From the NCBI GenBank assembly GCA_964036195.1, contig OZ038458.1, forward strand, positions 17,435,832-17,499,831: a DNA stretch of 64,000 bases. Reading direction: 5' to 3'. Positions 4,987 through 62,943 of the stretch are shown in pieces. Below the pieces are notes generated by a model. The model was not told the origin of the DNA, did not search any database, and saw only the letters and a program-made list of their open reading frames with translations. The position numbers and the translations under genes were made by a program. Source of the DNA: Sphaerolaimus hirsutus. Its lineage: Eukaryota > Nematoda > Chromadorea > Monhysterida > Sphaerolaimidae. The stretch's first letter is position 1; the number at the start of each line of letters is the position of its first letter.

Positions 4987-6972
4987 CTGGGCAGGTTTGG
5001 GGTGGGGACTATTTTAGTGTTTTATTTTTTTTCCATTGACCAGTCTCGAATTCTTTCAGCCGTCTTGTGAACCCTAAAACTTCACACAAATTTGTTCAAA
5101 TGTCCTGGTAAAATATTCCGTGTTTTACGGGATATTTTACATGACATTTTCACATTCTATCTTGCATTTTACAGTTTACATGACATTCAAACCGCGCGGA
5201 ACTTCCTCTGACTGATTCATCATTGTAAGATGAAAGGTTCAGGGTTTCACTTATGCAAAATTTGGGAATGACTAAATTTATGACTAATACCCTGCAAACA
5301 ATGCGAAAATGCATGGGTTCTAAAATGCATTTTTATTGTGTTATGTGATACTGAATTGGCAAACATGTCACACTGAAACACGTACATACGATGTGAAAAT
5401 GTAAAAATATTTGTGCAAATAACACTGAAATTTTATGTCGAATACTATTTACTTCACAACAAAAAAAATTCAGCAAACATCAAAGCAGTTTTGCTTGCAA
5501 ATCCATGTTTCAACAAAAATTTCTCAGTGTTTTACAGCTGCGATGGGGCACGCAACAGCAAAACCAAGCGAAACCCAGACGGTGGTGCACATCAAAAATA
5601 CAGTGGCCAAATGAATAACGCCATAGAGAAAATGTAATCCGTCAAAAATTCACTTTAAATCAAATCAAAATACCTAAGCTCATTACCTTGTGGCAGACTA
5701 ATATACTTATGAACATGAATATTTGAGTGGTATAAATATTTGCATAGGTCATTGAAATCTCTATGTATATTGTAGGTATTCGTGTTCAGGTGTGCACAGG
5801 TATTTGGCACCACCCTAAACAAACCTTGAATCATAGGTGGAAAATTCAGCAAATCTGCTGTAAACACCTGGGAATAATTCGCGGTCATAACCACGATTCA
5901 ATCAAAATAGTTCAGTCAACTTAATTCAAACTCTCCGCCAATGATCAGTAAAAGTGCAATCCACTAGTACACATACAGCCACGGTGTGGATTTAGTTTGC
6001 CGCCGGGTAGTATGACGCGGGCTGATCCGCCGCGTGCCATTTCGTCGCAGTCCCAATATGACTTACAGTCAGATTGTCAGAATTCAGCACGTCTCCATTT
6101 CATATGCCCCGAAATTACACGCAGCGCTGATAATTTTTGCTTAAAATATCAGTACCATGACAATTTACATATATATTTTTTACACATATGTTACATATAC
6201 TTACATAAATACCATCTTTGAGTAAAATTTTTACTCAATAAATCCATGAATACTCATAAATTGTATGTGAGATAAAAATTGCAAATCACATGTATCCACT
6301 GATTCCCCAAGCCAAAAATCCTCAAAGACTAATAGCCGCTGCGACGAAATAACACTGCGACGCATGAGCACGCGACCTAAGTACGCTCCGCGATATGCTA
6401 TGCGGCAAACCGAGAGCAAACCACAGCCACAACACATTGCGTATTCATGTCCATACAACACCACACATCACTCATACATTAGTACTGTGGTGTGGGTGCA
6501 GGTTTTCACTCTTTGCGTTTGGTGTGTTCTATAACTGTTGGGATGTTCCACTATGAACTGAAATCTGTTTAATTGAGATTTTCTCAATTTGAAAATTTTT
6601 GAGTGTTTGGGACTGATGTGGATCAAGTAACTGTTAAACGCCTTGTGTTCAATTTTGAATGTTTATGGAAAGGGTGTGAAATTTACTCATCTTTCCTAGT
6701 CACTGTACCTACTCATCTTTGTAGATGTAACTATACTTTTGCAAAAATTTACCTGAAAAACTTAGTCATAAATATATGTAAATACCTGCATAACCATAAC
6801 TCCTAACATAACTCCTCGGATAACATAAGTACCATAACTCCTGGAAAAGCATCTTTGTCTTCCTGACTGGGAACAAAAAAATCAATGTCTTCCCTGCTAA
6901 CATGTGACCTGTGTGGATATATACATCACATGAATTCTTGTAGATTAAGGTGCCTTTATGGCGCTGCACACG

Positions 6973-24580: not shown

Positions 24581-24900
24581 GGGCTCGAAACCCGACCCGA
24601 AACGATTTGTCGGGTAAAAAAGTGAAACGGACGTTCAAAAAGCGTCTACATGTGCCACTCCCAAGCTCTGAAAAATTTTCAAATGTCATGCAAAGTGTCA
24701 AAAGTCATGTAAAATTCCCTGTCAATTCGCAAGCCATTTTACAGAGCATTTCACATGACCTTTGACACTGTATGAAATTTGACATTTTACAGAGTCTGGG
24801 GTGCCCCATATATCCAATAACTTCAAATTCGAATTGTGAAAACCCGGATCCAAATTTCCACCATCGATTTGATTCGGGTCGGGTCGGGTTACGAGTGATC
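24581..24900. mobile_element. CGGGT-array element hosting a nested GTGCCAC foldback
   Basis: AGGGCTCGAAACCCGACCCG on the left faces GGGTCGGGTCGGGTTACGAG on the right. The layout (terminus plus G/C-rich motif arrays in inverted orientation) resembles the hAT-like elements at 36986 and 49127, but the termini are not identical and no duplication was found. Confidence 0.4.
24652..24806. mobile_element. GTGCCAC foldback element with a 3-bp CAT duplication
   Basis: The 155-bp element begins GTGCCACTCCCAAGCTCTG and ends AGAGTCTGGGGTGCCC. Its arms carry AAGTGTCAAAAGTCATGT and mirrored ACATGACCTTTGACAC. It is flanked on both sides by CAT (24649-24651 and 24807-24809). It is nested in a larger CGGGT-rich element (about 24581-24900) and is a relative of the intron-forming copy at 56999-57186. 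Confidence 0.7.
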
Positions 24901-25539
24901 GGGTCTGCGAGCGCTCAGGGCGCTGTTGTGCTAACGGCTGTCACGCAACGCGAAATATTTACCCCGCGCAGCGCTTTTGTGAGTCGCGCAGTCGGCAAGA
25001 GATGCCGCTCCGTTCGACACATTTGGGTCGCGGCATTTTTATTTTGTTTAAATTGGACATTCGGGGGGAAATTTTCGTACAGTAATACGTTACGTTATTT
25101 CAATGTTGTGTTGGTAATTGCGTATTTGTTGACCCTTGCTGACATTTAGCCATTATACCTTATCGCTCATTTTGCAAACCCTTCCAGGCACATTCGCCAA
25201 TTTCAACCGCTCTCTCTCCAAGAAAACAAAAACACACAAAACGGAAAATTCTTTCCCAACGCTACTAGTCCCTCCCAACTAGCGTTGGGTTGTAAACTGT
25301 AACCCGAAAACTGTAACTGACCTTTTCGGATAACGCCGGTGTTACAATCGGGTTCGTCCGGATCGTCGTCCGCATCGAGGAGTGACTCCCGCGAATCTTC
25401 ACTGGGTGCAAAATCCTGAGATGCAAGGAGGGAAAGTTGGAAATTTTTGATCGAAGATTACTTCCGCCGGGGATTTGTTGTCAATGGATCTCTTTAAAAG
25501 GAAGGATGACAAGCTTAAAAATCTCAACTGACAGGTAAA

Positions 25540-25790
25540 AGTGTCATGTATGTAAAGTATCATTTGATATTTTACATGACCTTTTACACTTTGCATGGGA
25601 TCTTACAATTTACACCACACTTTACAGGGTTTTACACAACACCAGGGGCCCGTCCCGCATCCAGTAAAATGTCGGATAAAATCCTAAAATTTGATAAAAA
25701 ATGTGAAAATCCCGGGGGAATTTTCTTTTGCATTTTACCTGATTTTCAACAAATTTCATTCGACATTTTACATCCAATTCGGGGGTATGC
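25540..25790. mobile_element. TGTAAAATG-type foldback, diverged
   Basis: GTGTCATG/TTTACATGACCTTTTACAC pairs and later CATTTTACATCC mirrored by GTAAAATGTCGG indicate one or two foldbacks. It lies 3' of the last Gln/His-rich exon. Ends are unclear. Confidence 0.4.
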
Positions 25791-25868
25791 TGGCCCCAGT
25801 CTACACAAGAACCTTCCCACCCTTCAACCAAACCTTCAATCACCCCCAAACCCCCCCCCCCCACCCAC

Positions 25869-28800: not shown

Positions 28801-31800
28801 CTAGCCCAACTCATTGTATTTGATATCTGAAATTATATAAGCAGACAAAAAGTTACCGTTTCCTTAAAATTTCCTCGAAATACCCCCATGAGGTTTATAA
28901 TTTCGTCAGCTAAATTATGAGGGGGGGGGGATAATTCGAGGAGAGTGCTTTGCTGGGGGGGGGATTATTATTGCAAGCATGATGTACATTATTCCAGATA
29001 AGTGTATTTCTAGGGGTGTAAATTCAAGGGAGATAATTCGATGAAATACGGTATGTTTTTATTTTCGTTGTAGCTCTAGCTAGCTAGCTAGCTGTACTCT
29101 AGCTAAGCATGGTGCTCGTGTCTATAAGCGCTAAAATCAGTACACTTTTTGCAACTAAAGTTCTGGGCAGAGGATAATTTAGGACGGAATCAAAAAAACG
29201 GGTTGCCCGACAAAAAATTTATCGGGCAAATCCAATCCCGCCCCGAAAATCCACCTTCAACACTACGCAATAATAATTATTGCCGGAACGTTCAGATACC
29301 GACAACGCGCGGCGAATGCGAATGCGAAAATGCGTTTCGCATCCAAACTGCACAAATGAAGTTTGAACGGCGGCATTTTGTACTCGCTCACGCACAGCGT
29401 GTCGCAGGTAAGATTACCTCAAAGTGAGAGCCCTAAAATGGCTGAAATGTCGCCGCGACGATAATTCAAAGCGAGCCGCCACAATGTGAGACTCGTGTGA
29501 TCGATTTACGGGTGGTCGCAACTTGACAAACTGCAATGATCAAAATGATCTAGCCGCAACTTGACAAACTTGCGGTAGACTCGAAAAGAGATCTCTATAT
29601 CCGACCCGCGTGTCACATAAAAATGACTAAAAATACCCTATTTCGGGTTTTCATTAACACCGACTAAAATCATAACGGAGCGATGATGAAATGTCAATTG
29701 AACAATTTCCTTGTTTGTTTGCAGTTTTTCCCGAAGTCAAGAAAAGCAGAATTTTTTGTGTGAATTTTGTACTGTTGGGAAAGTTTTTGCCGTTTCCCGA
29801 TCGTCTCCCATTGAATCGTCCTGGACGACCCTATCGAGGTTTCAGCTGGGTATATAAGCTGAAATTACTGCTCGACGTAAAATCGGTTGGAAACGATAAA
29901 TTGGATACTTGTAAAAATTTTATTTTTATTTCATGGTATTTTACGTGGAGCTGTAATTCCAGCTTATATCCGGCTGAAACCTCACTAGGATCGTCCAGGA
30001 CAAGCCAATGGGAGACAATCCGGAAACGGCTAAAACTTTCCCGACAGACCAACAAATACTTACTGCTTATGGCCCGCCCCAGCCGGTTTTACATACGCAA
30101 ATTCGTTTCGGGTTCACTACCCGGATGTATTCGGGTCTGCTTTCCATCACCAGCGCAGCATAACTAAGTGCTAAAGCGACAATGCATAGATCTACGTAAA
30201 GTAGCTACTGCCGCTTCATGAAAACTTCAACGGGCGTCATATGACGCGCTTCAACGGGCGTCGACTAAACGACGAGACTTTTCGTCATGCTCAAATGAAT
30301 TTTGCCGCCGCGCCGCATGGATATAGATGGATAGGTAAGGATATGATCAGATATATACGGCGGCAGAGTGTGAGAAGCGACATTTCGCTCGGCGGCCAGT
30401 CGAAGTTCGATTCGCCGTATCTTCTTCAAAGCGGCGCGTATCCAGATTTCGACTTTTTTTCGATCGAAAATACAATTGATTTCGCGAGAATCTCGCCGCG
30501 CGGCGAGAAATTGAAACTTGGGCGACCACTCGAATTAAAAGTGAAGATGCACACTGATGCATCTGAAACTGAAACAGCGGAAAAACCCACAATCATGAAT
30601 ATTGCAAATCAGTGAGCGGCCGAAAATTCGCCGGGCGCCTCGAAAGAGAAGTGAAATGTACGATGAATGGAAATACGGCCAAGGTTAGGGATGAGTGTTG
30701 CGCCGCCGCGGCGCAAACATCCGCGCGCGGCGGCGGCGGGAAATCTAAAATTGACGCTGTAATTTCGGTTGACAGGTGTTTTATAGAGTGATAGCTAATG
30801 GTTTTTTTCAATGGGTATTTTTGAGCGCAGAAAAGGATGCATTTGGGGACATTTTAAATAAGATACCTATAACTTTAGCGCGGCAAGAAATAAATAGGAA
30901 AATAGAATATTAAGAATAAGAAACAGCCACCAATCTCACAACCTGACCACACAGAACAAGATGGTCCACAATAATTGCAGACCAAACCATCCACAACCCT
31001 AAACCCCATTCCGCCAATGCACTTTTCACGCTCGCACAACACTGCGTGCAGCGGCGACATGCACTTTCACCTGAAATCTGCCGCGCAGCACATCAACCAG
31101 AACGAATGTGCGGCATTTCATGATACATGGATATTTTTGATGTCCGTGTATTGATTACAGGTGCTTGGGATATATTTTTGCAGATCAAGTGAAACTGTGG
31201 ATATAGGTAGGTACCTAGATTAATGCGAGCTTTGTGATTCAAGTAGAGTTTACAGCTTGGAGAGAAATTGAAAGTGAAGCTTATTTGAAAGTGAGAAAAG
31301 TTATAGCGAGGCATGTGATTTCCTAATTTGAATGAAAAATTCCTGATAGAAGATGAGCGAATGTGAAATCAATTTTCCGTTGTCGCATTTTCAATCAATT
31401 TGCGAAGACACTATCTCACTATCACAATCTCTCACCACTTTCACAAAACAAAATTACCGGTCGCTTAAAAGTTCACGCTTCACATTTCCTTTTTCGCCAA
31501 TCTGTAAGCGCACTTTCAGGTAAATATCGCATCCGCAATCCACGCACAGTTCACCGAATCGAAAACAAACAGCGAGATCATGTCCGCCGGTTTTCGCCGC
31601 CCGGCGACGGGGCGGCACATTTGTGGGTCGGCTGAGGTTACTGCCTCGTGGCGCGTGCGCAACAAACAAAAAATTGCTGAGAAAAATCGAGGAAATTTGG
31701 CGCCGGCGCCAAACGTGACGCCAAAAACCCAACACAAAATGGCGTCAATAAATAAACATATGCCTAGAATGGTCGCAAGTACCCGGCACACGGTTATATA

Positions 31801-33764
31801 CTCACTCGTTCCTACCTGCAGGGTGTTCACCTCGCCGCCCAAACCAGAAATGAACTCAAATGAACCTCTGGCGGGCTAAAATGACCTGAAACATGCGGAA
31901 ATGTCACTGTGCCGCGCCGCGGCGGCACAAGTGAAGGCATGGGCGGGTGAATTTGGAACGACGGCATGATATTTGGGAGTGAGGTGCGGTTTGATAGATT
32001 ATGACAGCCAATGGAATGTATATACTGAAAAGTTTGCTTGGGTGATGATCTGTTGAAGTTTTAGATGGATCTATTAAAAATACAGTGAGGTGGATATCTG
32101 CGTCAATTGCCCATTCATCAAGTTTCATAATTCTATCAGGAAAACATTGAACTGCGCCAACAAAGTAAAAAACGACAAACATAAAATCAAGTTGGACTTA
32201 ACTTGGCAATGTTGCAGAAATGGCACAGGAAATCGTGCAACGATAGTTCGCTACAAAATAAAACAGCGAAAACGCACAACCACTGAAAACGAAAACTGCA
32301 CTACTGAAGTTTCACGGCCCCCTGCGGTCATTCAAATACCTGCCGCCGAACTGCACAAATCAGTCGAAAATCATGCAAATGGCATGCAGGGATGACGTAA
32401 CTTATTACCGCATAGACACGCGCGCCACAAATCGAAATCTAGTTACACAAAAGTCGGGTTTTCTCTTTATAAACCGCCGCAAAATTGGCGGCTTATTACG
32501 TCGGGCGCCAGCGCGGTTTACTACCGCCCAATTTTTGGATAAGTTACGAGACGGTATAAGTATTTATAATGCGACGGCAAACTTTTGGCGCCATGGAGTT
32601 ATGGCGCCAAGCGACATCAAAGTCACTTCCGCGAAGTAAGGATGTTATATTTAGAATGTCAATGATTCATGCAAATTAAGTAGCCTTTTTTCATGGAAAA
32701 ATGCAACAAAGTCGAATGATCGAAACTGAAATTACCATATGAATAAAAAGTCTTGATACAATCAGCTTCAGGGGTTCTAAACGGCATATAATTCAATGTT
32801 CAAAAAACTTTTGATCAAATGTCTTTTGCACACCGCACTGCCGCAGGGAAAATCCAATGTCAAAGTGCATTGTAAAAGTGACCTATCATATCCTAAATTT
32901 AGGGAATCATATCTCCCTTTTTGATAAAAGCCGCGACCATTTTCATGCATTTTTACGTGAAAAACAATCCGTCCATTTGAAACATTATTTCCGTTCGATT
33001 TCAGCAGTAAATCACTCGGGAATTACACAGGATTGCCGCAACTTTATCGGACAAAAGATTGGATCCTTATCAATAAAAAATGGCGCTGCCACTTTGATCT
33101 TATAAAGTCTTGAATAATGCAGCGCCATTATCAAAAATTTACTTTATCGAGAATGAGGTGAATTTTTTTTAACAGTCGGACATCGGCGTGGGAAATTGAC
33201 ATTTGACAATTTAATATTTCATGACTATCAACACACATTGCGTGGACCGACACAGTAAAGTGGTGAAAACGTTATTAGTAGAAAGTCAAGTGACAGGAAA
33301 ACATTGCGACTCGTAGCACAGGTGAGAACTTCAAGTCACTCATCTCAACCAGTTACAAACTTTCTATCACTTGACCACAAGCATAATTTCCCCCTAACTT
33401 TGAAATCATCTCAGCAAAGTCAGCCGAATGCCGAACTGAGGGCACTCTCAGTCCGTGTAAAATGCCCAGTAAAGTCATGTAAAATTCCCTGTAAAATGGC
33501 AAACTCATCAAACATTATACAGGGCATTTCACATGACTTGACACTTTGCACGCCATTTGGCACTGTAAAGCACATCCCACACGGCCTGGAGATATTTAGC
33601 AGCACCTCCCCAACCCCAGCACCCACTTGTTGCCAGGCAATGATCTCCTCCGCAGTGGGTCCATCGTCCCCCTCCAGCTGCCGCTCGTCCACCAGGTGCA
33701 CTTGTCCGCGTCGGACGGCCGCTTGTTGCGTCGGCGGCACGTGAAACTGATGTAGCGACGACAT
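25869..33764 (-). CDS. Gln/His/Ala-rich regulatory-type protein, five exons, 3' end not found
   Basis: Not recognised. Minus-strand exons are 33627-33764 (starting at ATG), 28100-28480, 26821-27000, 26464-26550 and 25869-26093. All begin after AG, end before GT, are whole-codon lengths and join in phase 0 to give 337 open codons. Exon 1 encodes MSSLHQFHVPPTQQ and ends TAEEIIAWQQ. Exon 2 has a hydrophobic NAKYAASLMASLM run before poly-Gln and a Ser-rich tail. Exon 3 has poly-Ala and GLADFVGVSP. Exon 4 reads CASSAYGAFGQQPGYPAEFA. Exon 5 is Gln/His-rich and ends YDGTAM. The composition is that of an activation region of a developmental transcription factor. Position and strand suggest distal 5' exons of AP-2, but the last donor is phase 0 and I see no phase-0 acceptor in AP-2 exon 1 with a good polypyrimidine tract. 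It may be a separate gene whose domain exon was missed. The link from exon 1 to exon 2 is an inference. Confidence 0.55.
28856..29051. mobile_element. TA-flanked MITE, CCGTATTT family
   Basis: It runs from TA|CCGTTTCCTTAAAATTTCC with CTCGAAATACCCCC to GATAATTCGATGAAATACGG|TA. The G-run interior matches other copies. It lies in the putative first intron of the Gln-rich gene. Confidence 0.6.
29776..30043. mobile_element. Palindromic MITE, about 268 bp
   Basis: The left arm GGGAAAGTTTTTGCCG ... GAATCGTCCTGGACGACC ... GGTTTCAGCTGGGTATATAA is mirrored on the right by TTATATCCGGCTGAAACC ... GATCGTCCAGGAC ... CGGCTAAAACTTTCCC. Arms are about 90-100 bp with scattered mismatches. CGGGT-rich flanks at 29195-29255 and 30070-30145 suggest it is nested in a second element. 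Confidence 0.65.
33430..33600. mobile_element. TGTAAAATG-type foldback near a candidate first exon
   Basis: GGGCACTCTCAGTCCGTGT and AAATGCCC face GGGCATTTCACATGACTTGA. The left terminus resembles the introner-like element's GGCACTCTCAGA end. It ends close to the candidate exon 33627-33764 but does not coincide with a splice site. Confidence 0.5.
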
Positions 33765-36825: not shown

Positions 36826-38548
36826 CTTAGTCCGGCTGAAAAGTTCCCGGGCAGTGCTCTCCATTCGCGCTAGGGGTAACCTACGGTCATAAAATGTTGA
36901 CAGTTGAAGATATCATTTGTTTTGAGTTTTCACCTAAAATTTTACCCCTCTAGGAGACCTACTGGGGAACTGTGGGGGTTACAATTAGGGTTCAAACGGG
37001 ACCGCGGTCCCGGTACATGGTTCAGCAAAAAGTCGGGACTGGGGCAGTCCCGGTCCCGGTCCCGACACCCCAGTCCCGGTCCCGACAATCAAAAAAAGCC
37101 AGTCCCGGTCCCGGTCCCGACCACCCAGTCCCGGTCCCGGTCCCGGAATTTTAAAGCGGTCCCGACAAGGGATGGAAAAAACGTATTTTTCAAAAAAATT
37201 TGCCAGAAATGGCACTTTTCTAAAGCGATTTTGTAGGAACATCTAAAAAAATTTTGCGCGCAAGCGCGCAAATACCCAGCCAATGATTACTATGTATTTT
37301 TCCATAATGTGACAACGTTAGAAAGGTCCCCAACATGATTCTAGTACGAAATATTGGTATATAAAGATACCTATATTGTAGACGTTAGCGCCAACGCCAG
37401 CGCCAATACTGCCATGGCGTTGGCACCTACAACTGGCGCCGCCCCCCCCTCCGTACATTGCGTTTCATCATATATTCACAACTTTAAGTGAAGATGGCAA
37501 TGGAATACTGCTTGAATAATGTTATAAGAAAAGGCTAATACATTGAGAGTGGCTCTTCACACAGTGGAGGTGTGTGGAACAACATTGGCTGGATATTACA
37601 TACCAATAAAGTTCAAACAATACCGCGGTGCCGGTACCTGGTTTGGCAAATCCCAGTCCCGGTCCCGACCCCCCAGTCCCGATCCCGGTCCCGACAATTG
37701 AAGAAAGCCAGTCCCGGTCCCGGTCCCGACCCCCCAGTCCCAGTCCCGGTCCCGGTCCCGACATTAGAAAATTTCTGGTCCCGGTCCCGGTCCGAAAAAC
37801 TGGTCCCGTTTGAACCCTAGTTACAATTTCGGTCATTTTGTACTGAAGTACACATGGTGCTCTAGCTCAATGCTGCTTTAAGTTGTGATCATGAAACTTT
37901 GGCTAGTGTAAGCCACCAGTGTTGGCAATGTGCTGATAGTATTCAACACTTTCATCAACATCATTGCTTTTAAGGTAAAACAAATATGCAGATCAGGATG
38001 ATGTGCAAGAAACGTGTGAACTGTGATGGGTGTTTTTGATGATCATCTGAGATCATGTTGTATTGCAGTGATTTTAATGTTGTTTTGAAATGTGCAGTAA
38101 GCGAATTATGTGAATAAAATTTCCCAATAATATAGACTCCAAGAATATAGAGGTGCATAGATATCAAGGAGGGCTATTTTGAGAACGAGAGGCAGAATGA
38201 TGAAGTTGGTAGTGAGAGTAGTGACAGGAATGACAATATGGACTAGGCTTATGATATCATAGCTAATGTTGGTTAGTGCTGGCACATTGCCAACACTGGT
38301 GGCTTACACTAGCCAAAGTTTCATGATCACAACTTAAAGCAGCATTGAGCTAGAGCACCATGTGTACATCAGTACAAAATGACCGAAATTGTAATCCCCA
38401 CAGTTCACCAGTGGGTGGAGCTAGAGGGGTAAAATTTTAGGTGAAAACTCAAAACACCTGATATCTTAACCTGTCAAAATTTTATGACCGTAGCTTACCC
38501 CTAGCGCGAATGGCGAGCACTGCCCGGGGACTTCTCAGCCGGACTAAG
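36826..38548. mobile_element. Mariner-type non-autonomous element with long terminal inverted repeats
   Basis: The termini CTTAGTCCGGCTGAAAAGTT and the mirrored AACTTTTC-type GACTTCTCAGCCGGACTAAG are flanked by TA (36824-36825 and 38549-38550). The arms run about 280 bp each: TGCTCTAGCTCAATGCTGC on the left matches GCAGCATTGAGCTAGAGCA on the right. The left arm is interrupted at 36986-37819 by a hAT-like insertion; removing it restores the match across TTACAATTTCGGTCATTTTG. The unique centre (about 37980-38270) has no transposase. Confidence 0.85.
36986..37819. mobile_element. hAT-like MITE with GTCCCG arrays, nested in a mariner-type element
   Basis: 834 bp. It starts TAGGGTTCAAACGGGACC and ends GGTCCCGTTTGAACCCTA, with the 8-bp duplication GTTACAAT at 36978-36985 and 37820-37827. 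Subterminal blocks consist of CCGGTCCCGACCCCCAGT-type units. The rest is AT-rich or unrelated. The 8-bp duplication and TAGGG-type end fit the hAT superfamily. No transposase is present. Confidence 0.88.
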
Positions 38549-50662: not shown

Positions 50663-51452
50663 CCAGGGGCCAGTTCCGCAAGTAGACAAGTTAAGAGTTA
50701 AAAGTTAAGAGTTGAGTTAAAGGTTAAAAGTTGAGTCAAAAGTTGAGTTAAAAGTTAAGAGTTGAGTTCAAGGTTAAAAGTTGAGTCAAAAGTTGAGTTA
50801 AAAGTTAAGAGTTGAGTTAAAGGTTAAAAGTTGAGTCAAAAGTTGAGTTAAATGTTAAGAGTTGAGTTAAAGGTTAAAAGTTGAGTCAAAAGTTGAGTTA
50901 AATGTTAAGAGTTGAGTTAAAGGTTAAAAGATGAGTTAAAAGTTGATTAAAAGACAAATGGGTCATTCGTTGCAGAAGCGCGATACGCTGATCTTCAATC
51001 ATATTTTGTCCCCGCACGGCCATTTCGAAACAACGTTCGGCGATTTTTTCTTTTTTTAGCGATAATTTTTTTGGATACGTTATTTTCAAATGACGTGCAT
51101 ACAACATTGGCACCATGCCAGCGAACAGCCGTATCGATACCAATTTCATATTTTTATTTTTTCATATTTTTTTATCATCATTTTCCACTTGTCTCTTAAC
51201 TCTCAACTCTTAACTCAACTCTTAACTCAACTTTTAACTCTTAACTCAACTTTTAACCTTTAACTCAACTATTAACCTTTAACTCAACCTTTAACTCAAC
51301 TCTTAACATTTAACTCAACTTTTAACTTTTCTCTTAAATTTTAACTTTTCTCTTAAACTTTAACTTTTCTCTTGAACTTTAACTTTACTCTTAACTCGCC
51401 ATTTGTCTTTTTACTCAACTCTTAACTTGTCCACTTGCGGAACCGGCACCTG
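50663..51452. mobile_element. Long foldback with GAGTTAAAAGTT arrays and a unique loop
   Basis: The termini CCAGGGGCCAGTTCCGCAAG and the mirrored CTTGCGGAACCGGCACCTGG enclose arms made of about 50-bp tandem units (GAGTTAAAGGTTAAAAGTTG). The right arm is the reverse complement (CTCAACTTTTAACTCTTAAC). The loop (about 50955-51165) is ordinary unique sequence and carries a minus-strand frame from 51149 starting MKLVSIRLFAGMVPMLYARH with a Lys/Glu-rich stretch, about 67 residues before it enters the repeats. I do not recognise that peptide. Confidence 0.75.
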
Positions 51453-51459
51453 GGTCCTA

Positions 51460-52798
51460 TTTGAGTGCTTGCATAATATTTACAATTTTTTTCGTTTCAC
51501 CGTTTTGATGCAATATTACCCGGTGTGAAGTTGTCAGCCATGAGAAATGAGATTACCATGTGCGCAAAATGCACGACAATAAAAATATTGTAAAATTATC
51601 AATTTTGAAAATGAATTTATGGACCTATTCTCACAACCATTTGAACACTGCGTTGTTTATACAGAAATATTGACATCTAGAATTTTTTACGACACATGTA
51701 ATACCAATATCTATTAACAATAAAATACTTTGACACCTACAAATAAATTTTTGGAGGTGTTGATCGTTTTTACAAAGCTAGGTAACTTGCTTTACGTTTT
51801 TAACCTTTTTTATTATTTTAATAATAAAATCTTTTTTATTATTTCCCACCCAAGATCATTTCGAAAACCACGTGCATTTTGAAAAATACCATATACCTAA
51901 AAAACAACTATTTTTTGACCAACCGTACCCCCAAAAATGCTGTCTGAGATGTCAGTAAAGTTTCGTCTAATGCCGTCTAAAATGCCTCGTAAAATGCAAA
52001 GGTAAATTTTACCTGACATTTGACAAGGTGCCGCACTGGCCCCTGAGCTCGTGCTGGCACCTGCAACTTTCACAACCGCTTTCATTTTCATATGTAATCA
52101 CATTTTACGTGACAAATCACAGTTGAATTTCGACCACATCGCTGTTTTTCCTCCCTTGCGCATCCGGTATGGAATAATGATAGCTGACCACGTCCGGAGG
52201 GGAATTTGTCCGCGCCCGTCGTCTCGCGGGGAGATTTTCATTTTCCAAATGTATAGTCGGCTGATTTTCATATGAAATTTTGTCGTGACCGCTGCAGTGG
52301 AAGTGCCGCTGGGGGTACATGTTTGATCTGAAATTAAAATGTTCACGTGTTTTGTAATTGTTTTTTTTGCATGAGTTAAGATCCTTCATGTTTTGTAACA
52401 CGAAAACATAGTGAAATAAGGGGTCTGTTTGTGTAAAACAGTTGTCGTCTAAACACCTCCCCATTCAAGTATGGCAGTAAATTTTTGGCTTTGCCCCCTT
52501 CCAGCCATTTGTCAAAATTGTGGACCCCCACCCTAAAATGCAACCCTCGATTTTTCTATGGGCCTTTCTCATTGATGTGAAATGGACGCCTATATCCTAA
52601 AATTTCCGCTTTCTATCTCCCCACAGCCGGAGATAGTGCATTCAGAATTAGATCAAAAAGTGACTGTCGAACTTTAGCGGGAAGGTGTTTAAATATCGGC
52701 ATTTATATTTAGGTTGGAGGAATGCCATCATTAAATTTGGTCCTATTCGATATTTAAGCTACTCATAATCCATAATCCAACTATCAACCCCAAAAAAC
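51460..52798. other. Interval between xylose isomerase and the RhoGEF 3' end
   Basis: The two genes converge here. It holds a TGTAAAATG-type foldback remnant (about 51930-52045) and a CACCTTCCC-ended relative of the 54629-56492 element (about 52448-52692: AAACACCTCCC facing GGGAAGGTGTTT, with CACAGCCGGAGATAGTG). No exon was recognised. Confidence 0.5.
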
Positions 52799-55700
52799 TC
52801 ACAATCTACTCGCGACATTTTCGCTGTGCTGCGCACATGTGCACTGCAAATGATGCTCATCTAGTGCCAGTGTGCTTTGACATTCACTTGGTGGCTGATT
52901 TAGGGATCTTTTCTGGGGTATATTGCCATTTTTGGGTGATTTTGGTGAAAGGGAGTCACCAGTGGTGAATGAATGTCTGCTCGTTGTCGCCTCATTGACT
53001 TTTATTTGAGTTTTCGATCGAGCTAATTCACTTCTGGTGCTGTTGACGCGTTTGAAACGCTCGTCTGAAATCAGCGGCGTGGCTTTGATCATATCTTTGA
53101 GTTGAATTGACTCGTAATTTTCGATGGACTCTTGGAATTTTTGTATCCAGACGTCCTGTGTGAATTTTTTATATTTAAGATCGTATGGTTCTCGGAGGAA
53201 ATTTCCATTTATTGTATCTTAATTGATCTTTACATTTTTGAAATTCCGTATATCGAGTTGATTTTTTAATGTGCAATATCGACATCAAAAAGTGGTGTTC
53301 ACTTTACCGCTCACTTTTATAAGAACACTTGTGGTATTTACTCAATTTAACATGTTTTAACCTTCTGCTCCTTGTTCGGTGCTTGCAAAGTGTATACCGC
53401 CACAACTTGATAGAATCTGGTCAAGTGTATTATCACAAATCCATTTCGCACATTTGTAGCTGCGAGTAGGCTAAAAAGTTACATTCAAAACTAAAAGTGA
53501 CATTACAAAACCATTATCCACTAAATTCAACCTACCAACTGCATCATGTGGTCCAATGTCGCAGAAAACACACGAATCCAATGGTACCGGCTGTCTGACC
53601 ACGGTGTACTTATTGTTCCCATACGCGGGTAAACTCTGCCACAAAGTGGTAGTAACCACGTTACCACCGTGGTGCGCCTGCCCTCCCTGCACGAGGGGCG
53701 ATTGGTGCACGTGTGTCTGCGTTGGCAAGGCGCCAACTGAGCCCGTAGGGTTCAAGCGAGCTGCACTCAAGTCTGCGTTGCTCGCCGAAGAGCACGCCGA
53801 ACGTGAGCTGTTGCCTGGCGCGCATGGACTGCTGCTGCCACTGATTGAATTGTGTGGTTGTTGGGCGGCTGTGGATTTGTGGGTGGTGAATGGTTTTTTG
53901 GTTTATAGGTTACCTCGTGCGCTTGTTATCTTACGGTTAATCGTTGAGATGCGACATGAGTTCGGTGTGGTCATGGGTGGTGCGCGTGGTAACTCTTTAG
54001 ATATCTACTGTTTCGGTGTGTGACGAAACCATTTATACCACTGGGTAACTTTAACAAGTGCAATCCGAGCGTGCTACTTTTTTGGCAGTTTTTGCAAAGT
54101 CTAGCTGTATGCAATGTTTTCCGCTGTTTCGCCTAACTAGTGGCAAAAATGAGTTAGAAAGAAACATTGCATATTTTCATGTATTTTCGCACCGACCTTG
54201 AGATTTCGAAGTGCTCTGAATAGTTTGAACTGGTGGCAGAACTTTTTTACTCTTTGAAGGCTGCCCTTTCTTGCACTTTGTCAAAAGCAGCATATCATTA
54301 AATAGAAACGCGTAGATCTCCAAGTGTTTCTGGTTGGAATCGATCATTTGTAAATTGCCTTCGTGTATCAGTTTTCTCCTCGGATGTGCCAGTAGATTTT
54401 CGCAGAATTGACGCGTCAGCGCCGGTTTTAGAAACTAGAAAAATGAAATTTTAATTTTTTGGGAGCCTGAAATTTACACGAGTGCCGAAAATTTGCTCAC
54501 GTCGGGCACATAAGTTTTCGGATCCAGTTCCGAAATCGGCGGCCACGCGAGCTGTTTTTGCAGTTCTTGGATCCGTTCAAAGTTATGAAGCCATTGAATA
54601 CTGTCGTCGATTGATCCTGGAGGTAGTGTAAATAAACACCTTCCCGGACAAGTTCACCACCCATTTTTTTATTTCACTTTGAACGCAATATCTCCGTCCA
54701 TGGGGGTGTTATAAGGCTGAAACGTTGTATATATAAAGTTGTAAGACCCCCTTACTCCCCAACAATGGGGGGAGGTGCGGCGACTCACAACAGGGTGGGT
54801 CGCCCTATATGCAACAATTTTTGTGGCGTTTTTGGTGTCCCAAGCAAGTTCACCACCTACTTGATAAGCTACACTTTAAAGGCTATATCTCCAGCTGTGA
54901 GGGCGGTAGAAAGCTGAAATTTGGGGGATGTCTTGCCAACAACCCCCCTCACAATACACCAGTGGGGCGGCTGCCGACGACTCACTAAAGCATGGGTCAC
55001 TCACTGCATATAAAGTTTATAATTTTTTTAAGAACAGCCCAAGTGTCAGAAACAAGTTCGCCACCCAACTGCATTACAAAAAAATGTTGTGAGAACATAC
55101 CTGATATAAAATTGAATGAGATTTGAACCCTAGTTCTGCTCATTAAATTTTTTTCAGTAGGGCACCCACCCTGTCCCATAAACAGCAGACTGAAAATTTC
55201 ACTTTAAACCAAATTTTTGTTTCACACTTTAAAAGTTGGTTTACAAAGTCCCATAGAGAAGTGTTTAAGGTTCAACATTGCGTAAACAACATAACCTCTA
55301 AAATGCCCCAATAAAGAAATTTATTTGGGGTGAATTTTATGACATCATAATGACATCACCACAGGAACAAAATTTGTCAAAATTTTCATTTTTTCATTCA
55401 CCCCAAATAAATTTCATTATGGAGGCATTTTAGAGGTTATGTTATTTACGCAATATTGAACCTTAAACACTTCTCTATGGGACTTTGTAAACCAACTTTT
55501 CAATTGTGAAACAAAAATTTGGTGTAAAGTGAATTTTTTGTCTGCCATTTAGGGAGGGGGTGAGTGTCCCATTCAAGTTTGCCAGTGCCTACAGAGAAAA
55601 TTTCGATCAGGAGATCTAGGGTTCAAACTGGATATAATTTTTCTTCTGGGATTGGGATCGTTACTGGAGGGTTGTCTGGGATCATATTTTTTTCATATCG

Positions 55701-58700
55701 GGATTTTTTTATTTATTTGAGATAGGGATCGTGACTGGGGTCTGTGTGCGGTATTGGGGTGGGGGTCATTCTGGATAGTTTTTCATTCAGATTTTTCATA
55801 TTGGATACTTTTTGAATTATTCAAGATTGGGATCAGGACTAGTTCACGGTCTGAATAGTTTTTTTCAAATGTTTGATGAAATTTTTTATAATTATTTGGG
55901 ATCAGGATTTGTGTTTAGTTTCTGGGGTCAGGATTGTGGGTCCCAATGGTGTCTGGCTTCACATTTTTAATCAACCAAAGCATTTAAAAAAGGTGGTGGA
56001 CTGCTTTAAACAACTTTACTTTTTCTTTAAAGTCTAAACCATGCACTTTTACAAACGCAATCAGGTGGTGAACTAGTGTGGGACACTCAGGTCGTTTAAA
56101 AAAAAACAACTTTAAACGCAGCGACCGATGCTGTAGTTGGTCGCCGGCTGTCGTCCCGCCGGTCAATAGTGAGGGGGGTGTTGTCAAGACATCCCCCAAA
56201 TTTCAGCTTTTTAACCCCCCCACAGCAGGAGATATGGCCCCCGTAGTGCAGCCAATCAAGTGGGTGGCGAACTTGTTTGGGACACTAAAAACGCCAGAAA
56301 AAAATGTTGCATATACGGCGACCCTCCCTGTAGTTCGTCGCCGTGCCTCCCCCCATTGATGCGGAGTAGGGGATTGTTGAAACTATATATATACAAACTT
56401 TCAGCTCTTTAATCCCCCCATAGCCGCAGATATTGCGTCAAGAGTAAAATAAAAAATTGGGTGGTGAACTTGTCCGGGAAGGTGTTTATGTACACAAGTA
56501 CACATTATGAAATGGTGCGGAAAATTTATCTGCATAGCGGAGTGTTTGCTCCTTTCCTATGAAGTGCTTTTTCTCAAACGAATACCGTATATAAAGAGTA
56601 TTTTTAATTATACTCGGCGGACCGCAAAGTATGCGCAGAATCCTTCCACAATTTAATGAATAAAATTTTGTGATCATTTCATAATTAATTTTTCCACACG
56701 TAAAAACGAAATGTTATGGTGAAAAACTGTACAATCTTTGGTTCAGTATTCAGATGGGTTATGGTAGTTTTCCATACTGTCTGCGATGTCCGCCGAGTAT
56801 ATCGATGTACAACCCTGTCCCCAATACAACGCACTCAACGCATCGCTCATAGTCTCCAAAACCCTGTTGAGTCCAGCGGCGGCCACCTGTGCGCGTCTGT
56901 CTTGCTGGGCCTCGACCCTGGCACTGTCACCGCCGGCATTACCATTGCTGACCATCGCTGCGGCTTTGAGTGCTTGCCGCGAGAGTAGGGGAAGCCTGAG
57001 GCACTCTCAGAGGCTGTGAAATGCACTGTAAAATATCAAGTGTCATGTGAAGTGTCAAAAGTCATGTGAAATGCTTTGGAAAATGGCAGCGAGTTTGCCA
57101 TTTTACCGGGCATTTCACATGATTTTTGACACTTCACATGACATTTTACATTTTACATGGCATTTTACAGAGTCTGGGGGTGGCACCTGGTGATTCTGTG
57201 CAGCGGAGCTATGAGAAGGTCTTCAAGACGGCGCTTTTGAGAGCGCTCGTCGCTGTTGCACAGCTGGGGATTGTTTTTTTGTTGTGTTTTAATTGGTTTT
57301 ATTTAAAAACCTTGTTTTATTTTTTAAAAACAACAATGTCTCGTATTGGGTTGGGTGGAAAAAGGGTCGCTTTAGAATTACGTTAGAAATACGGTAATTG
57401 TGGCGAGGGAAACCCATTATTTAACCACAGCGACTCGTAACCCATCGTCTCGTAAGCCAAAGTGCATCAAGATTTAACCCAAAGTACCTCGTCTCGTAAG
57501 CCGCAGCCAATCATTCAACTCGTCACCCAAAGTGTGTCATTATTTAACCCCACTGTGTCATTATTTAAGCCATGAGTACATAGTACAAATTTTGTGTCAT
57601 TATTTAAGCCGTGTGTACACATGTATTTAGTTCATATTTGTGTATTTTTTGAATGCCAGCGAATACATAGCACTGATGTGCTGGTGCGGAACCAACGTAA
57701 ATATGTGTTTACATGGTGACCAATGATACTTGCAATGTGGGATGAACAAGGGAAATAGATATATTTATCTAGGTAACTCACAAATTTCATTTTAAACATA
57801 TCGCGCCCACTTTCAAATCAAATCAATTTTATTACCCCCCTTGAAAAATGCATAAGAAACATATGCAATGGAAAATAATGTGGATAGAAATGAACAGCTT
57901 TTTCTCTCCATTTGATACTCTCATGCATGAAACACTCTTTATGTCTGTTGTCCATTTCGCTTTATTAGGACCAAAAGTATCCATGAGCCACTTACTCGAG
58001 CCCACCAGATATTGACCACAGATGTCCAAGTGCATTAGCCAAAAACGACTGATCTTACCGCCACATGTAATGTCTATACATCCATCTTATATGTATACAT
58101 GTTATGTATTTACCTGTACTGCGGCTTACGAGTCGACACATTGGGTTGAATAATGAGGCACAATGGCTTAAATAATGACACACTTTTTCACGTTAATTGT
58201 GGCTTAAATGTCGCCATACTTTGGCTTACCTAGCGAGGTACTTTGGCTTTACAGTCGATGGGTTAAATCTCGGGTAGCTTAAATCTCGCTATACTCTCAT
58301 TGTGGCTGACCAATGGCCACTTTTGTTTGCTCAGGAGATTAGTGCAGCATTTGCATGTTCACTGCTATGGAGCCAGGCAAAGAACACTTTTTTAGATTGT
58401 GAATTGAGCAGGGTGGGTCAAATATAAATTATGACATAAAGGATACGGAAAAAAGTCAATGTTTATATTGATGTTTATAAAGATTGTGAATTGTGGTGTT
58501 GTTCAAATAAATGTTCCAAGGCAGAATAATAAAAAAGGTAGTCAGCGATGAACATGTAATGTCATAAAAACTTGGAAGTCCACAANNNNNNNNNNNNNNN
58601 NNNNNNNNNNNNNNNNNNNNNNNNNNNNNNNNNNNNNNNNNNNNNNNNNNNNNNNNNNNNNNNNNNNNNNNNNNNNNNNNNNNNNNNNNNNNNNNNNNNN

Positions 58701-61700
58701 NNNNNNNNNNNNNNNNNNNNNNNNNNNNNNNNNNNNNNNNNNNNNNNNNNNNNNNNNNNNNNNNNNNNNNNNNNNNNNNNNNNNNAACATAAAGATGTTA
58801 TCAAAATTCTCCAAAAAAGTTGATGATGCAGATAACCGTATTTCTTCTATTGGAGGCTGCCGTTCTATTTTTTTCACCGACTTTTCTCACACATTTTTCA
58901 TTTGAAATTGACCGTTTTTAGTGAAACGTGAACAATATTTAAATATTAGAGCATCAATTCAAACAAAATACGGTAGTGGAGAGTTTGAAAAAGTATAATT
59001 TTCAAAAATATGAATACGAATGCTGCTCAATAATACGGTTTGCAATCCCGAAATTTTTAATTCGCTAACTACCTTTCATACTTCCACCCATGAACCTTTA
59101 TTTGAACCACCCGACAATGAATACACAAATGCTGAATGAATCTGCACAAATATTACAATCAGAAATGATGTCGCAGTCGGATTATACGTGATTAAATCAT
59201 GATCCGGCACCGATGACCACTTCAAAAGCGGAGCCGAACTCCGCCTCATCGATAAATACCATATTCTTAAAGCGACCCTTTTTCCCCCCAGCGTCGTATT
59301 GGCTTGTTTTGAACATGCACTGTATATATGACCCACTATGTTTTGAGTAAGTCGCGAATTCAATCAGCTAATTAATTGAGTCAGGGAAATTGTGGGCTGA
59401 GTAAACGGTAGATTGAGTAATTGCGCGGGCAATTCAGTCAGCGCAGGTATCGATTGAGTAATTCACGTATTGAGTCAGCGCTGTATTTAGTTTCATATGC
59501 ATCAATTAAGTCAAAGAAGGGAGTATTTGTCTAATGTCTATGTCATTCCGTGAATAACCGTATTTCCTCGAAATATCCACTGGGGGTGATTGTTTCAGAG
59601 TGAGAATTTTGAGGGGGGTATTTCGAGGGGTGCTTATTAATTCGCCAGAAATTTTTTGAACACCCAGTACTAATTTGTTTGTAATGTACGCAAACGTAAA
59701 TACAAAAATGCAACAATAAGTACTATGTATGCATAAGAGCCTATAGACTAATATAAGTATGTGTAGATGGTATAAACCCTGTCATAACGTAACACAGTAT
59801 TGTTTTTAATGTGTGTTCTGTCTGCATTGCCCGGATCACAAACCGCAGCTTCAGTCATTTATGTCCCCTTTACACTCAATTGTGGGGATATTTTGAGGTG
59901 GGTGGGTAATAAATTCATAGTGCTCATTTTGAGAGGGGGGTATTTTGAGGAAATGCGGTAAGTGAAAAAATCCACAATCCGACTAACGCGTCAACGTTTA
60001 CTGTGAAGCGACTTTTCCAATCTTCAAGCCGCCCAAAATTTTCCATACCGACAACAAAATGCACATACCGTATTTCCTCGAAATACCCCCGGGGGGTTGA
60101 TTGTTTCAGAGTGAGAATTTTGAGGGGGGGTATTTCGAGGGGGGGTTTATTATTTCGCCAGAAATTTTTTGAAATCCCAGTACTAAAATGTCGTCTGAAA
60201 CGTACGCAGACGTCGAAAAATGCAACAAAAATAGCCATTTATAAGACTCTAAAGACATTTATAAGTGTGTAGACGTACAAACACTGTTCTCACATAACAG
60301 AGTCATCGTTTTTAACGTGTGTTCTGCATTGTCGGGATGACAAACCGCAGCCTTTGTCATTTACGTTCTCTATACACTAAATTTGGGGGGGGGTATTTCG
60401 AGGGGGGGTTTATAAGTTCATAGTGTCCATTTTGTGGGGGGGTATTTCGAGGGGGGGTATTTCGAGGAAATACGGTATTTTGCATCGCGAAATACTTTTC
60501 TGCAACAAACAATTCCATTTTCCGGATTAATACAGTTATTATTCCATTATTATCGTTATGATTATAAAAGCGTGTCGCTTTCTATTTGAAGTTCTCAAGT
60601 GCACGCGGCCACACTGCATCCGGTTTATGCATACGCGGCATGACGCAGTGTCTTGACTCAATCTATACCTTCAATTGAGTCAGAGCACCTATGCTTATAC
60701 TTTGCATTGGGACAAATTGATACCCCACCTTTAGACGAATTTTCCGCTGTGTGATTCAATCTTCCGTTTTTCTGCGGAATTTATTAGCTGATTGAATCCA
60801 CAACCAAAGTTGCGGAGTTATTTACGTGATTCAATGCACCACATAGCGGAGTCGGTATTTCCCCGTATATATTCACTTTCGGAGCTTGGTTAACCAGGCA
60901 CTGCTTTATAACATTCTATTCAAGCATTTCTCTATGTATTCAAACACGGCTCTGCATTGAAGAGTGACACTCAAAACAAGCTAATTCGATATATGCAACC
61001 TTTTCAAATTGAACAAATCTATCATCTCGCTGTCTGATGTTCTCCAAATATTCCATGGTCGCTTTGTAATTGATGCAATAGGCTTGGTATGCCGCCAGGT
61101 TTCCCGAACCTCTAGCGAACTTTGTGGGGAGGTTTTCTTTTTTAAATGAAGCCAGAAATTTGTGATTTTACGTTTAAAAAAAAATTTTTACGCACCTTTT
61201 CCATGACTGTGGTAACAATTCCGATTGGGTCATGTTTTCCACGTTCTACGTGTTCTTGTATTAATTCGGAATAATGCTCGCAGACTCTGAAACTTATCTG
61301 TGTGTTAGTAAATAAATACTGTTTATGGGAGTTTTTGGGTGGAACTTATTGACAAATCATTAAGAAATTGCCGTTGATTAACATCTTGCCTGCTATTTAC
61401 ACAAAAGCTTTATGATAGCTTGCTGAACATGGTTTTTGAATGTATTCACAGGAAACGTAAATCACTAATGTTCGCTGACAATTCTACTCAAAAACCGGGA
61501 ATTATGTGGCAGCTCACTCATTTACATTGTTTTACATTTCCCTGTGATTTTCAAGAACAATTTGAGTTCCTGATTTGTACTGCAAGTTTAAAAAAGGTTT
61601 TTAATGGTGTAAAAATAAAGGCTTTGTCTTAATTTTCAATATCAATAACACTGCATTGACAATTCCCTTCATCACCTAATCTCACCTGACATAATTCATC

Positions 61701-62943
61701 CAAATTTCCAAAAAGTAAGTCTGGTTCCACAAACAATAACAGTCCTTCCACTTGGCAATATTTCAAAGGCTCCTTGTAAACATTTCTGATGACTAATAAA
61801 TGCTTTAGGAGAAAAACCAGCTCAGTGTGAAAAAGTTCCCAAAGTGCCTTTAATCTTTGCTGCTCGCACACATTCACTGATGAATAATGTGGGAATAGAT
61901 CTGTCCATGATTGTTTCTGTGTGCAAAATTGAGGGATTTTAATTAACTCTAATTATTAATTACAATTAATTATTTTATTAACGTTTATTAATTCTAAGTT
62001 ATAAACTTATATTGATTAACTGATAAAACTGTAAGGACATTATGAATTCTTCAATATTTACCATGTATTTATACTAAAATGTGCTCATTTACAGATTAGG
62101 GTGTTCCCGTGACCTACTGTCATCAAAACATATTTCTTCTAGCTGCCCTGCAAAATTTAACAACCAGTTTTTCAAAGCCTTCTTTACATCCTGTTAAATG
62201 TTCAGATGTGGTTAAGTAACCTGGTACCAAACCACCCCCCCTCCTCAAATAAAACCCCACCCCCAGCCAACCGCCCAATGTCCAATCTGCACCTCGTCAT
62301 ACTCAGTGTCGTTTTTACACAGCGCCCTAGCCGCGTGCACGGCCACGTGTCTAGTTTTCGCCCTACTCGACCAATCGTAAAGGCGCTTTATCAGCCAGGG
62401 CGCCTTTTTGCCCCCTGATGACGAATGAATGTGCGCCCTACACGATTTGTTGCACGCGGCGCCAATGGGGTGATCGTGCTCTAACACGTCTAACATGCAG
62501 GGACCTGAGGGGGTGTACAGTGTGTTTTGAGGGTGTTTTGGCGTGGGTTTGTTATTGTTGTGTAGGTCATATAGTATTTATTAGTGTCACTCAACAAATC
62601 AGGTGCCACTCTCAGACACTGTAAAATATAAAATGTCATGCAAAGTGTCAACAATCATTAATATCGCCAAGTGTCATGCAAAGCGTCATGTAAAGTGTCA
62701 AACCACTGGTAACAAAAATAAAAGAAAATAAGTATGACATAAATAAATACAGGGATAGGAGGACACCAGGTAACTCGCCCCCCCCCCAACCCACCAGTAT
62801 CCGCGTAGAATGCCTGCGCGGCGACAGTGGCCTTGTGCAGGTCGGCTAGCAAGCCGCGGCCGGCCGACGTGACCGCCCTGTTGTACAGGTGCCCGTGCGC
62901 CGGCTGCATGTGCGGCACTATGATCACGTTGTCGTACGCCCGG
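52799..62943 (-). CDS. Dbl-family Rho guanine nucleotide exchange factor (DH-PH), 5' end incomplete
   Basis: Twelve minus-strand exons: 62795-62943, 62293-62504, 61686-61916, 61196-61297, 61000-61119, 57187-57263, 56814-56995, 54501-54616, 54197-54434, 53536-53868, 53362-53459 and 52799-53155. They total 2215 nt with every phase compatible, 737 residues plus TGA from the window's first exon. The DH domain starts near QQRLKALWELFHTELVFLL, runs through VEGLLLFVEPDLLFGNLDEL and YCINYKATMEYLENI, and includes the conserved helix RLEDLLIAPLHRITR/LPLLSRQ. The PH domain follows (RRKLIHEGNLQMIDS, YAFLFNDMLLLTKCK, GFVIIHLTRFYQVVAVYTLQ, WIQKFQESIENY), with a Ser-rich insert in its middle and a short tail. 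The family loads GTP on Rho GTPases at membranes and controls actin. It looks closest to PLEKHG5/GEF64C-type proteins, from memory only. The two most 5' exons encode a region I do not recognise. Confidence 0.9.
55160..55570. mobile_element. Palindromic MITE nested in the 54629-56492 element
   Basis: Arms of about 180 bp: GGCACCCACCCTGTCCC, TTTACAAAGTCCCATAGAGA and ACATAACCTCTAAAATGCC on the left are mirrored by GGCATTTTAGAGGTTATGTT, TCTCTATGGGACTTTGTAAA and GTGAGTGTCCC on the right. The loop contains GACATCATAATGACATCACC. There are few arm mismatches, so it is probably young. Confidence 0.8.
55616..55975. mobile_element. One-sided hAT-like end with GGGATCGGGAT arrays
   Basis: TAGGGTTCAAACTGGATA begins at about 55617 and is followed by degenerate GGGATTGGGATCG units. 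No matching right terminus is seen downstream. A separate right-type terminus, TTTGAACCCTA, ends at 55131. These are probably truncated or rearranged copies of the family at 36986 and 49127. Confidence 0.45.
56999..57186 (-). mobile_element. Introner-like element: a foldback MITE that is the whole intron
   Basis: On the minus strand the 188-bp element begins GTGCCACCCCCAGACTCTGT and ends CTGAGAGTGCCT. It is flanked by CAG at 57187-57189 and CAG at 56996-56998. The inner arms carry AAATGTCATGTGAAGTGTC and its mirror. The intron of the RhoGEF DH domain is 56996-57186. Its 5' splice site is the first CAG followed by the element's own GT. Its 3' splice site is the second CAG. Splicing therefore removes exactly the element plus one duplication copy, and the codons ATC ACC AGG CTT CCC read through the RITRLPLL helix. 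Confidence 0.8.
57397..58291. mobile_element. TIR element with GTCTCGTAAGCC / ATTATTTAACCC arrays
   Basis: The left arm (GTGGCGAGGGAAACCC, ACCCATCGTCTCGTAAGCC, AAAGTACCTCGTCTCGTAAG) is mirrored on the right (CTTACGAGTCGACACATTGG, GCTTACCTAGCGAGGTACTT, GATGGGTTAAATCTCG). TA precedes the left end and follows the right end. The loop (about 57600-58100) is unique. It lies in the long RhoGEF intron between 57264 and 60999. Confidence 0.65.
58586..58785. other. Assembly gap, 200 N
   Basis: Exactly 200 Ns; the round length suggests a placeholder for an unknown distance. It lies in a RhoGEF intron and does not interrupt a recognised exon. Confidence 0.99.
58835..58973. mobile_element. Short CCGTATTT-family MITE with TTCTATTGGAGGCTGCCG
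   Basis: It begins ACCGTATTTCTTCTATTGG and ends CAAAATACGG before TA (58974-58975). The subterminal sequence matches the AATAGAACGGCA element at 10947-11343. Confidence 0.55.
59557..59958. mobile_element. CCGTATTT-family MITE, long form
   Basis: ACCGTATTTCCTCGAAATATCC faces GGTATTTTGAGGAAATGCGG. The interior shares ATGGTATAAACCCTGT and CACAAACCGCAGCTT with 10074-10409 and related text with 60068-60475. Confidence 0.7.
60068..60475. mobile_element. CCGTATTT-family MITE, long form, near-intact
   Basis: CCGTATTTCCTCGAAATACC at the left and GGTATTTCGAGGAAATACGG at the right are perfect mirror images with TA on both sides (60066-60067 and 60476-60477). GGGGGGTATTTCGAGG is repeated several times inside. 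It is the best reference copy of the family in this window. Confidence 0.8.
60500..60999. other. Intron sequence of the RhoGEF gene, no feature recognised
   Basis: AT-rich with a few GATTGAGTCA/TGATTCAAT words shared with 59365-59520 (ATTGAGTCAG, GATTGAGTAATT), which may be the arms of one more foldback. Confidence 0.4.
62603..62766. mobile_element. GTGCCAC foldback element, diverged copy with CAG on both sides
   Basis: GTGCCACTCTCAGACACTGT follows CAG (62600-62602); the far end GGATAGGAGGACAC is followed by CAG (62767-62769). The interior has AAAATGTCATGCAAAGTGTC units. It lies inside the RhoGEF intron 62505-62794 but does not fill it. Confidence 0.5.

Follow-up and report, generated by a model that had tools for sequence, protein, structure and literature searches.

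In the window analysed here, a stretch of 64,000 nucleotides from Sphaerolaimus hirsutus, one intron of a RhoGEF gene is very probably a foldback DNA transposon copy, non-autonomous and acting as an introner. The element belongs to a family for which an introner nature is the best reading, and we infer that exonic copies of this family are removed by splicing, with TG plausibly serving as 3′ splice site in some of them. The origin of new introns is a long-standing question, for which animals looked almost inert. Judged from the genomic sequence, a hairpin transposon with thousands of copies that lands in coding genes and is apparently removed as a ready-made intron would give a direct view of intron origin in an animal.

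The first-pass annotation described the intron as one foldback element plus one duplicated CAG, and the coordinates in Table 1 fit this description. Read on the minus strand, the locus has the order ...ATCACCAG / GTGCCACC...GAGAGTGCCT / CAG / GCTTCCC, with an element of 188 bp. Excision of the element together with one CAG restores the RhoGEF DH domain (PF00621), as the exons joined over the element match the profile from position 2 to 154 with 9e-21 and 75.3 bits, while the score drops to 64.7 bits when the protein ends at the element. By sequence, the top solved relative is ARHGEF12 (4.5e-8). The remaining borders read from the DNA of this gene are ordinary ones, with GT at two other donors and AG at three acceptors. 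The arms of the window copy measure 87 nt each, are 83 % complementary and are spaced by 7 nt, and its predicted RNA fold of −95.1 kcal/mol (z −16.8) was equalled by none of 200 shuffles. By itself, this copy is compatible with a duplication of either 2 bp (AG) or 3 bp (CAG); other copies have 3 bp, in agreement with the duplication length first claimed, and the 2-bp version was rejected. Duplications and restored codons support an intron that would have been created by insertion into an exon.

Table 1. Positions of the RhoGEF gene parts, the element-intron and the clear element relatives in the window.
Feature	Positions	Strand	Remarks
RhoGEF DH exon, open part	61686..61952	minus	5′ limit not fixed; donor CAG/GTGAGA
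RhoGEF DH exon	61196..61297	minus	3′ limit from translation only
RhoGEF DH exon	61000..61119	minus	donor AAAAG/GTTGCA
RhoGEF DH exon upstream of element (LCNSDERSQKRRLEDLLIAPLHRIT-R)	57187..57263	minus	
Exonic CAG copy of target duplication	57187..57189	minus	ends upstream exon
Intron, entire element plus one CAG duplication	56996..57186	minus	GT 57186–57185, AG 56997–56996
Foldback MITE copy	56999..57186	minus	85 % identity to 189-bp family consensus
Second CAG copy	56996..56998	minus	would act as 3′ splice site
RhoGEF exon downstream of element	56800..56995	minus	3′ limit not fixed
PH domain	54270..54413	minus	PF17838, 7e-6; taken as same DH-PH gene
Clear relative of element	24652..24806	plus	CAT/CAT duplication (24649–24651, 24807–24809); outside recognised coding sequence
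Clear but diverged relative of element	33434..33599 (or up to 33605)	minus	start at about the end of a putative first exon in another gene (GAG/GTGCTG)

The RhoGEF gene is present a second time, as either a true duplicate or an unresolved haplotype, in inverted orientation about 179 kb away (L009/L002; region of C14:17672072), and this copy contains the same element intron. The two copies are 96–98 % identical in their exon parts, 88 % in the element and 91–93 % in the adjoining stretches; 71 of the 75 bases of the upstream exon that adjoin the element are the same, and a single amino-acid change was found in the stretch compared. With exons at 96–98 % and the element at 88 %, the element thus evolves like an intron, while the exons stay constrained. 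Directly upstream of the element-intron, the neighbouring intron holds a second, longer element (57438–58265) with arms of about 130 bp that are 69 % complementary, and a run of 200 N at 58586–58785 marks an assembly gap within a RhoGEF intron.

When the genome (348,482,957 bases in 762 contigs) was searched with the 29-base element end including CAG, 11,185 sites were found at up to three mismatches, compared to 0 for the reversed pattern used as whole-genome control, and the exact 26-mer end is present at 1,122 sites. Copies were then drawn in two samples. The first one comprises 39 copies from a BLAST list and is biased to window-like copies, the second one 79 of the first-listed exact 26-mer sites, all located on contig C1 and unselected by flank, with near-adjacent repeats and one copy already contained in the first sample skipped. 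Of the 79 copies in this second sample, 62 allowed their ends to be located, and removal of duplicates left 58. The family consensus of 189 bp (GTGCCAGTCCCAGACCCTG...CAGGGTCTGGGACTGCCCC, GTGCCA...TGCCCC) is predicted to fold into an almost perfect hairpin of −166 kcal/mol, and the ends pair by at least 12 pairs in all 87 folded copies (140–215 nt). These ends are imperfect inverted repeats, GTGCCA versus GGGGCA in the consensus, that differ at two positions, reading GT on the left and GG on the right. Being short and non-coding, with terminal inverted repeats, target site duplications and a high copy number, the family has the features of a MITE. Initially it had been called recent and multi-copy; the 11,185 end matches bear out the second attribute only, since even copies with a perfect 26-base end show a median identity to the consensus of 88 % (with 27 of the 58 aligning over nearly their whole length). 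The bulk of the copies is therefore not very young, and a strong claim of recency was rejected. The element end gave 0 matches in viral and prokaryote contigs, and the gene content fits the animal host proposed at the outset. The last contig of the assembly, read over 10,000 of its 14,754 bases, is 82 % A+T and contains a frame of 520 aa, taken to be COX1, that stays open under each of the codes 5, 9 and 13.

Among the 79 unselected copies, the left flank reads CAG in 34, CTG in 29, TAG in 6, CGG in 5, CCG in 3 and CAT and TTA in one each, so that CWG, scored here with no triplet-preference rule, accounts for 63/79. A recount of both flanks in 94 non-redundant copies, in which C..G triplets within 1 base were preferred on the right side, yielded CAG/CAG (34), CTG/CTG (25), CTG/CAG (14), CCG/CAG (5), CGG/CGG (2), CAG/CTG (2), four other types once each and 8 unclear cases. 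CWG stands on both sides in 75/94 copies and is identical in 59 of those. Genome-wide, the ratio of CAG to CTG is 1,291:1,106 before the left end (CAG 54 %) and 1,277:884 after the right end (CAG 59 %); CAG is hence commoner on the right (p=0.0004), a p value that serves as a guide, since some copies belong to both sets and duplicates are included. Such an excess after the right end is expected if AG acceptors are favoured. The mixed flanks are skewed in the same direction, with CTG/CAG outnumbering CAG/CTG by 14:2 (p=0.004), by 9:1 in the BLAST set and by 5:1 in the unselected set, the latter being too few alone. Both asymmetries are in keeping with acceptors moving to AG, by drift or by selection, and with retention of the exonic CTG.

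To see the other copies in their coding context, the element and one duplication were removed, the join was translated, and 38 sense and 12 antisense peptides, some chosen by eye from open frames and others by codon score, were scanned with Pfam. A domain runs through the exact join (E < 1e-4) in 11 of the 38 sense peptides versus 1 of the 12 antisense ones. The sense loci comprise four with CTG/CTG flanks, L064 (OSCP1, 4e-17), L097 (7TM Srx, 1e-6, a receptor fragment), L098 (E1_dh, 2e-5) and L099 (Xan_ur_permease, 4e-14), and one with CGG/CGG, L117 (Helicase_C, 4e-14). CTG/CAG is found at L074 (CHGN, 1.5e-14), L121 (AMP-binding, 2e-11), L014 (GH63, 7e-23) and L045 (Glycos_transf_2, 5e-19), CAG/CAG at L017 (Ion_trans, 1e-10) and L119 (Carn_acyltransf, 2e-16). 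Srx is a GPCR family known from nematodes and weakly hints at the phylum of the host. On a level finer than the Pfam family, we take genes at the tested loci to be BCKDH, GALNT, Kv, SLC23, SNF2 and DNAJC. Both the peptides and the frame test described below are based on an earlier duplication call, from which the strict recount differs at L011, L019 (there CTG/CAG), L029, L101 and L111.

A few further sense peptides gave weaker matches across the join (E 0.002–0.02). No join-spanning domain at E < 1e-4 was found in 27 of the 38 sense peptides, including all ten next-best by codon score, and none of the peptides chosen by that score had a domain below 0.005; many of the domain-negative sense peptides may lie outside known domains. 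The antisense positive is L042 (Myb, 3e-11), while the domain at L105 does not cross the join. L042 and L044 are near-identical Myb/SANT loci, presumably of a DNAJC-like gene, with an antisense element whose GT end is mutated to AT. Within the 58 resolvable unselected copies, a domain spans the join at L064, L074, L097, L098, L099, L117, L119 and L121, setting the exonic share at no less than 14 % (8/58) as a lower bound, and many of the sampled copies are without coding signal.

Agreement in reading frame was assessed with a codon model trained on 13 loci with leave-one-out, which chooses strand and frame for each side by itself; an expectation-maximisation version was too weak and was dropped. 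For 98 loci, some of them duplicates, and with no threshold applied, 32 agree on both sides (26 sense, 6 antisense), 15 share the strand in another frame and 51 differ in strand, chance agreement being one sixth (16). When both sides score above 2 (30 loci), 15 agree (13 sense, 2 antisense), none is shifted on the same strand and 15 differ in strand. Exact joins thus prevail over shifted ones. Strand assignment by the model is noisy, and it places even the RhoGEF locus (W0, L009) on the wrong strand. A bias of the exonic copies towards the sense orientation is supported in these modest samples. With domains that rejoin exactly at 11 sense loci and with frames that agree, the expectation that further copies sit at intron-like borders has held up; together with the window gene, the 11 sense copies point to many introns that are alike up to both splice borders, as introners are.

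These features suggest how an intron could arise from the element. Insertion would take place at a CNG trinucleotide, mainly CAG or CTG, which becomes duplicated. As the left end begins with GT, a 5′ splice site would lie right behind the duplicated CNG, and behind the C-rich right end, the three bases of the second CNG would close the intron. In the transcript, a predicted hairpin of about 90 pairs would set both splice sites side by side and bury the AGs of the element itself, 19 and 31 nt upstream, in its stem, and removal of the element with one duplication would bring the original codons back. The spliceosome would act as remover, the hairpin as helper and a PHIS/NuwaI transposase as mobiliser. 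The earlier proposal that the element supplies GT and the duplication AG holds for the CAG class; it does not extend to CTG and CGG copies, which also lie in coding sequence and for which acceptors other than AG, or some other route of removal, would be required. Among the CNG duplications only CAG yields a GT-AG intron. The CTG/CTG copies (25/94) likewise break conserved coding sequence in sense, and exact removal would leave GT...TG there and GT...GG at CGG/CGG copies.

Alternatively, copies of the CTG/CTG and CGG/CGG classes could be spliced at canonical sites located within the element or close to it, thereby adding or exchanging residues, which we consider rather unlikely while giving it more weight than any other rival. 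Open in-frame GT..AG pairs are indeed available at L064, L097, L099 and L117; most would add 15–25 residues, and one at L117 would swap bases at unchanged length. At the antisense locus L042, a GT 18 nt inside the element could pair with the CAG acceptor at the cost of 6 extra residues, and owing to this canonical in-frame option non-canonical splicing was rejected as a necessity there. At L098, however, each of the 6 in-frame GT..AG pairs in the range searched contains a stop, and pairing the first GT of the element with either of its own AGs (−19, −31) results in a frameshift. Extra residues would moreover hit matches that are of equal length in protein and profile (OSCP1 42, E1_dh 57, Srx 85). 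Use of TG as acceptor at CTG/CTG copies is thus a plausible prediction. Taken further, the spliceosome might accept any CNG left by insertion (CAG, CTG or CGG) as 3′ site, aided by the hairpin that joins the intron ends, whereby nearly every sense insertion of a single MITE family would become an intron and thousands of GT-TG introns would later drift to GT-AG; we put this forward tentatively, as a conjecture that falls just short of an even chance.

It is improbable that the copies within coding sequence stay unspliced, being for the most part harmful or heterozygous insertion alleles or parts of decaying gene copies, with the GT and AG of the RhoGEF intron a coincidence of the CAG target. 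Several loci being near-identical duplicates and CTG/CTG copies having no AG acceptor would agree with such a scenario, yet the sense bias (13 of 15 coherent loci, and the Pfam result), the CAG excess after the right end and the conservation of the RhoGEF exons around the element in both gene copies speak against it. Precise somatic excision at the DNA level is more improbable still: although it would restore genes whatever the duplication and need no AG, the copies are present in the assembly itself, and sense bias and right-end CAG excess are what RNA splicing, but not DNA excision, would lead one to expect.

For the origin of the element, the NuwaI group of PHIS (PIF/Harbinger-related) transposons is of interest, for which 3-bp CWG duplications and a distribution mainly in animals are described (PMC4482050). 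The family shares these CWG duplications, as the flank counts above demonstrate, and differs from that account of NuwaI by additional CGG/CGG, CAT/CAT and mixed CTG/CAG flanks; we treat NuwaI (PHIS) membership as putative. DDE_Tnp_4 (PF13359) transposases are abundant, with 163 matches in the genome. More than 100 Harbinger-type PF13359 matches are near-equal in score; in most of them, 147 profile positions correspond to 633 nt that include four in-frame TGA. They may stem from a recent expansion of a gene that carries an intron. A single 3.2-kb transposase region was read for an autonomous partner and had no ends matching the element; GGGGCAGTCCCAGACC, flanked by CWG duplications, is the end pattern by which such a partner, expected to encode DDE and Myb/SANT proteins, may be recognised.

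In the survey by Gozashti et al. 2022 (PMC9860276), introners are described as multi-copy intron families with similarity reaching to both splice sites, terminal inverted repeats, target site duplications and an mRNA that is usually restored; they were reported from only two animal groups, with 5 to >2,000 copies per family. The element-intron resembles the type in Figure 2C of that survey, in which the 5′ site comes from the element and the 3′ site is co-opted, and differs from the introners covered there by >11,000 end sites that are not all genic, by a hairpin that takes up the whole element and by exonic copies lacking AG. The non-canonical introns of Fritillaria borealis (PMC13326754) likewise occur in an animal and have a triplet at both borders, mostly without AG; their triplet is YAY with termini AG/AC and AG/AT, whereas here CNG, a GT start and ordinary GT and AG borders of the window gene are found. 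Introner elements of Amoebophrya (PMC7789003) carry inverted repeats capable of forming a hairpin, direct repeats of 3–5 nt at the borders and non-canonical ends, in a protist and with repeats of 8–20 nt and variable borders, in contrast to the present elements, which form one defined family and have arms about 93 nt long. Human introns that start with GT and end with TG are a further likeness; in these (PMC2374985), TG functions only if an AG lies no more than 28 nt away, whereas the AG here is 19 nt upstream in the predicted stem. No title or abstract on introners or MITE-born introns reports the family in our search, which covered mainly open-access main texts, and "introner" together with "Harbinger" retrieved one paper only, which deals with fungal genomes. 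A family that combines more than 11,000 end matches with a defined target motif and with CAG, CTG and CTG/CAG states side by side could make intron birth watchable in one animal genome, and it would at the same time show how far acceptors other than AG are tolerated and how they are repaired to AG.

Relatives of the element are also spread across the window as anticipated, two of them clear (Table 1) and five weaker or partial (25498–25796, 62603–62710, 3411–3576, 5036–5207 and 51917–52060). The relative at 33434 is perhaps another element-derived intron start. Two inverted arms of 113 bp, 99 % complementary and with 348 bp between them, occupy 37821–38394 and perhaps represent a young foldback or TIR element. 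Further strong foldbacks detected by self-complementarity are located at 55160–55569 (393 bits), 29772–30047 (224 bits) and 50663–51453 (204 bits).
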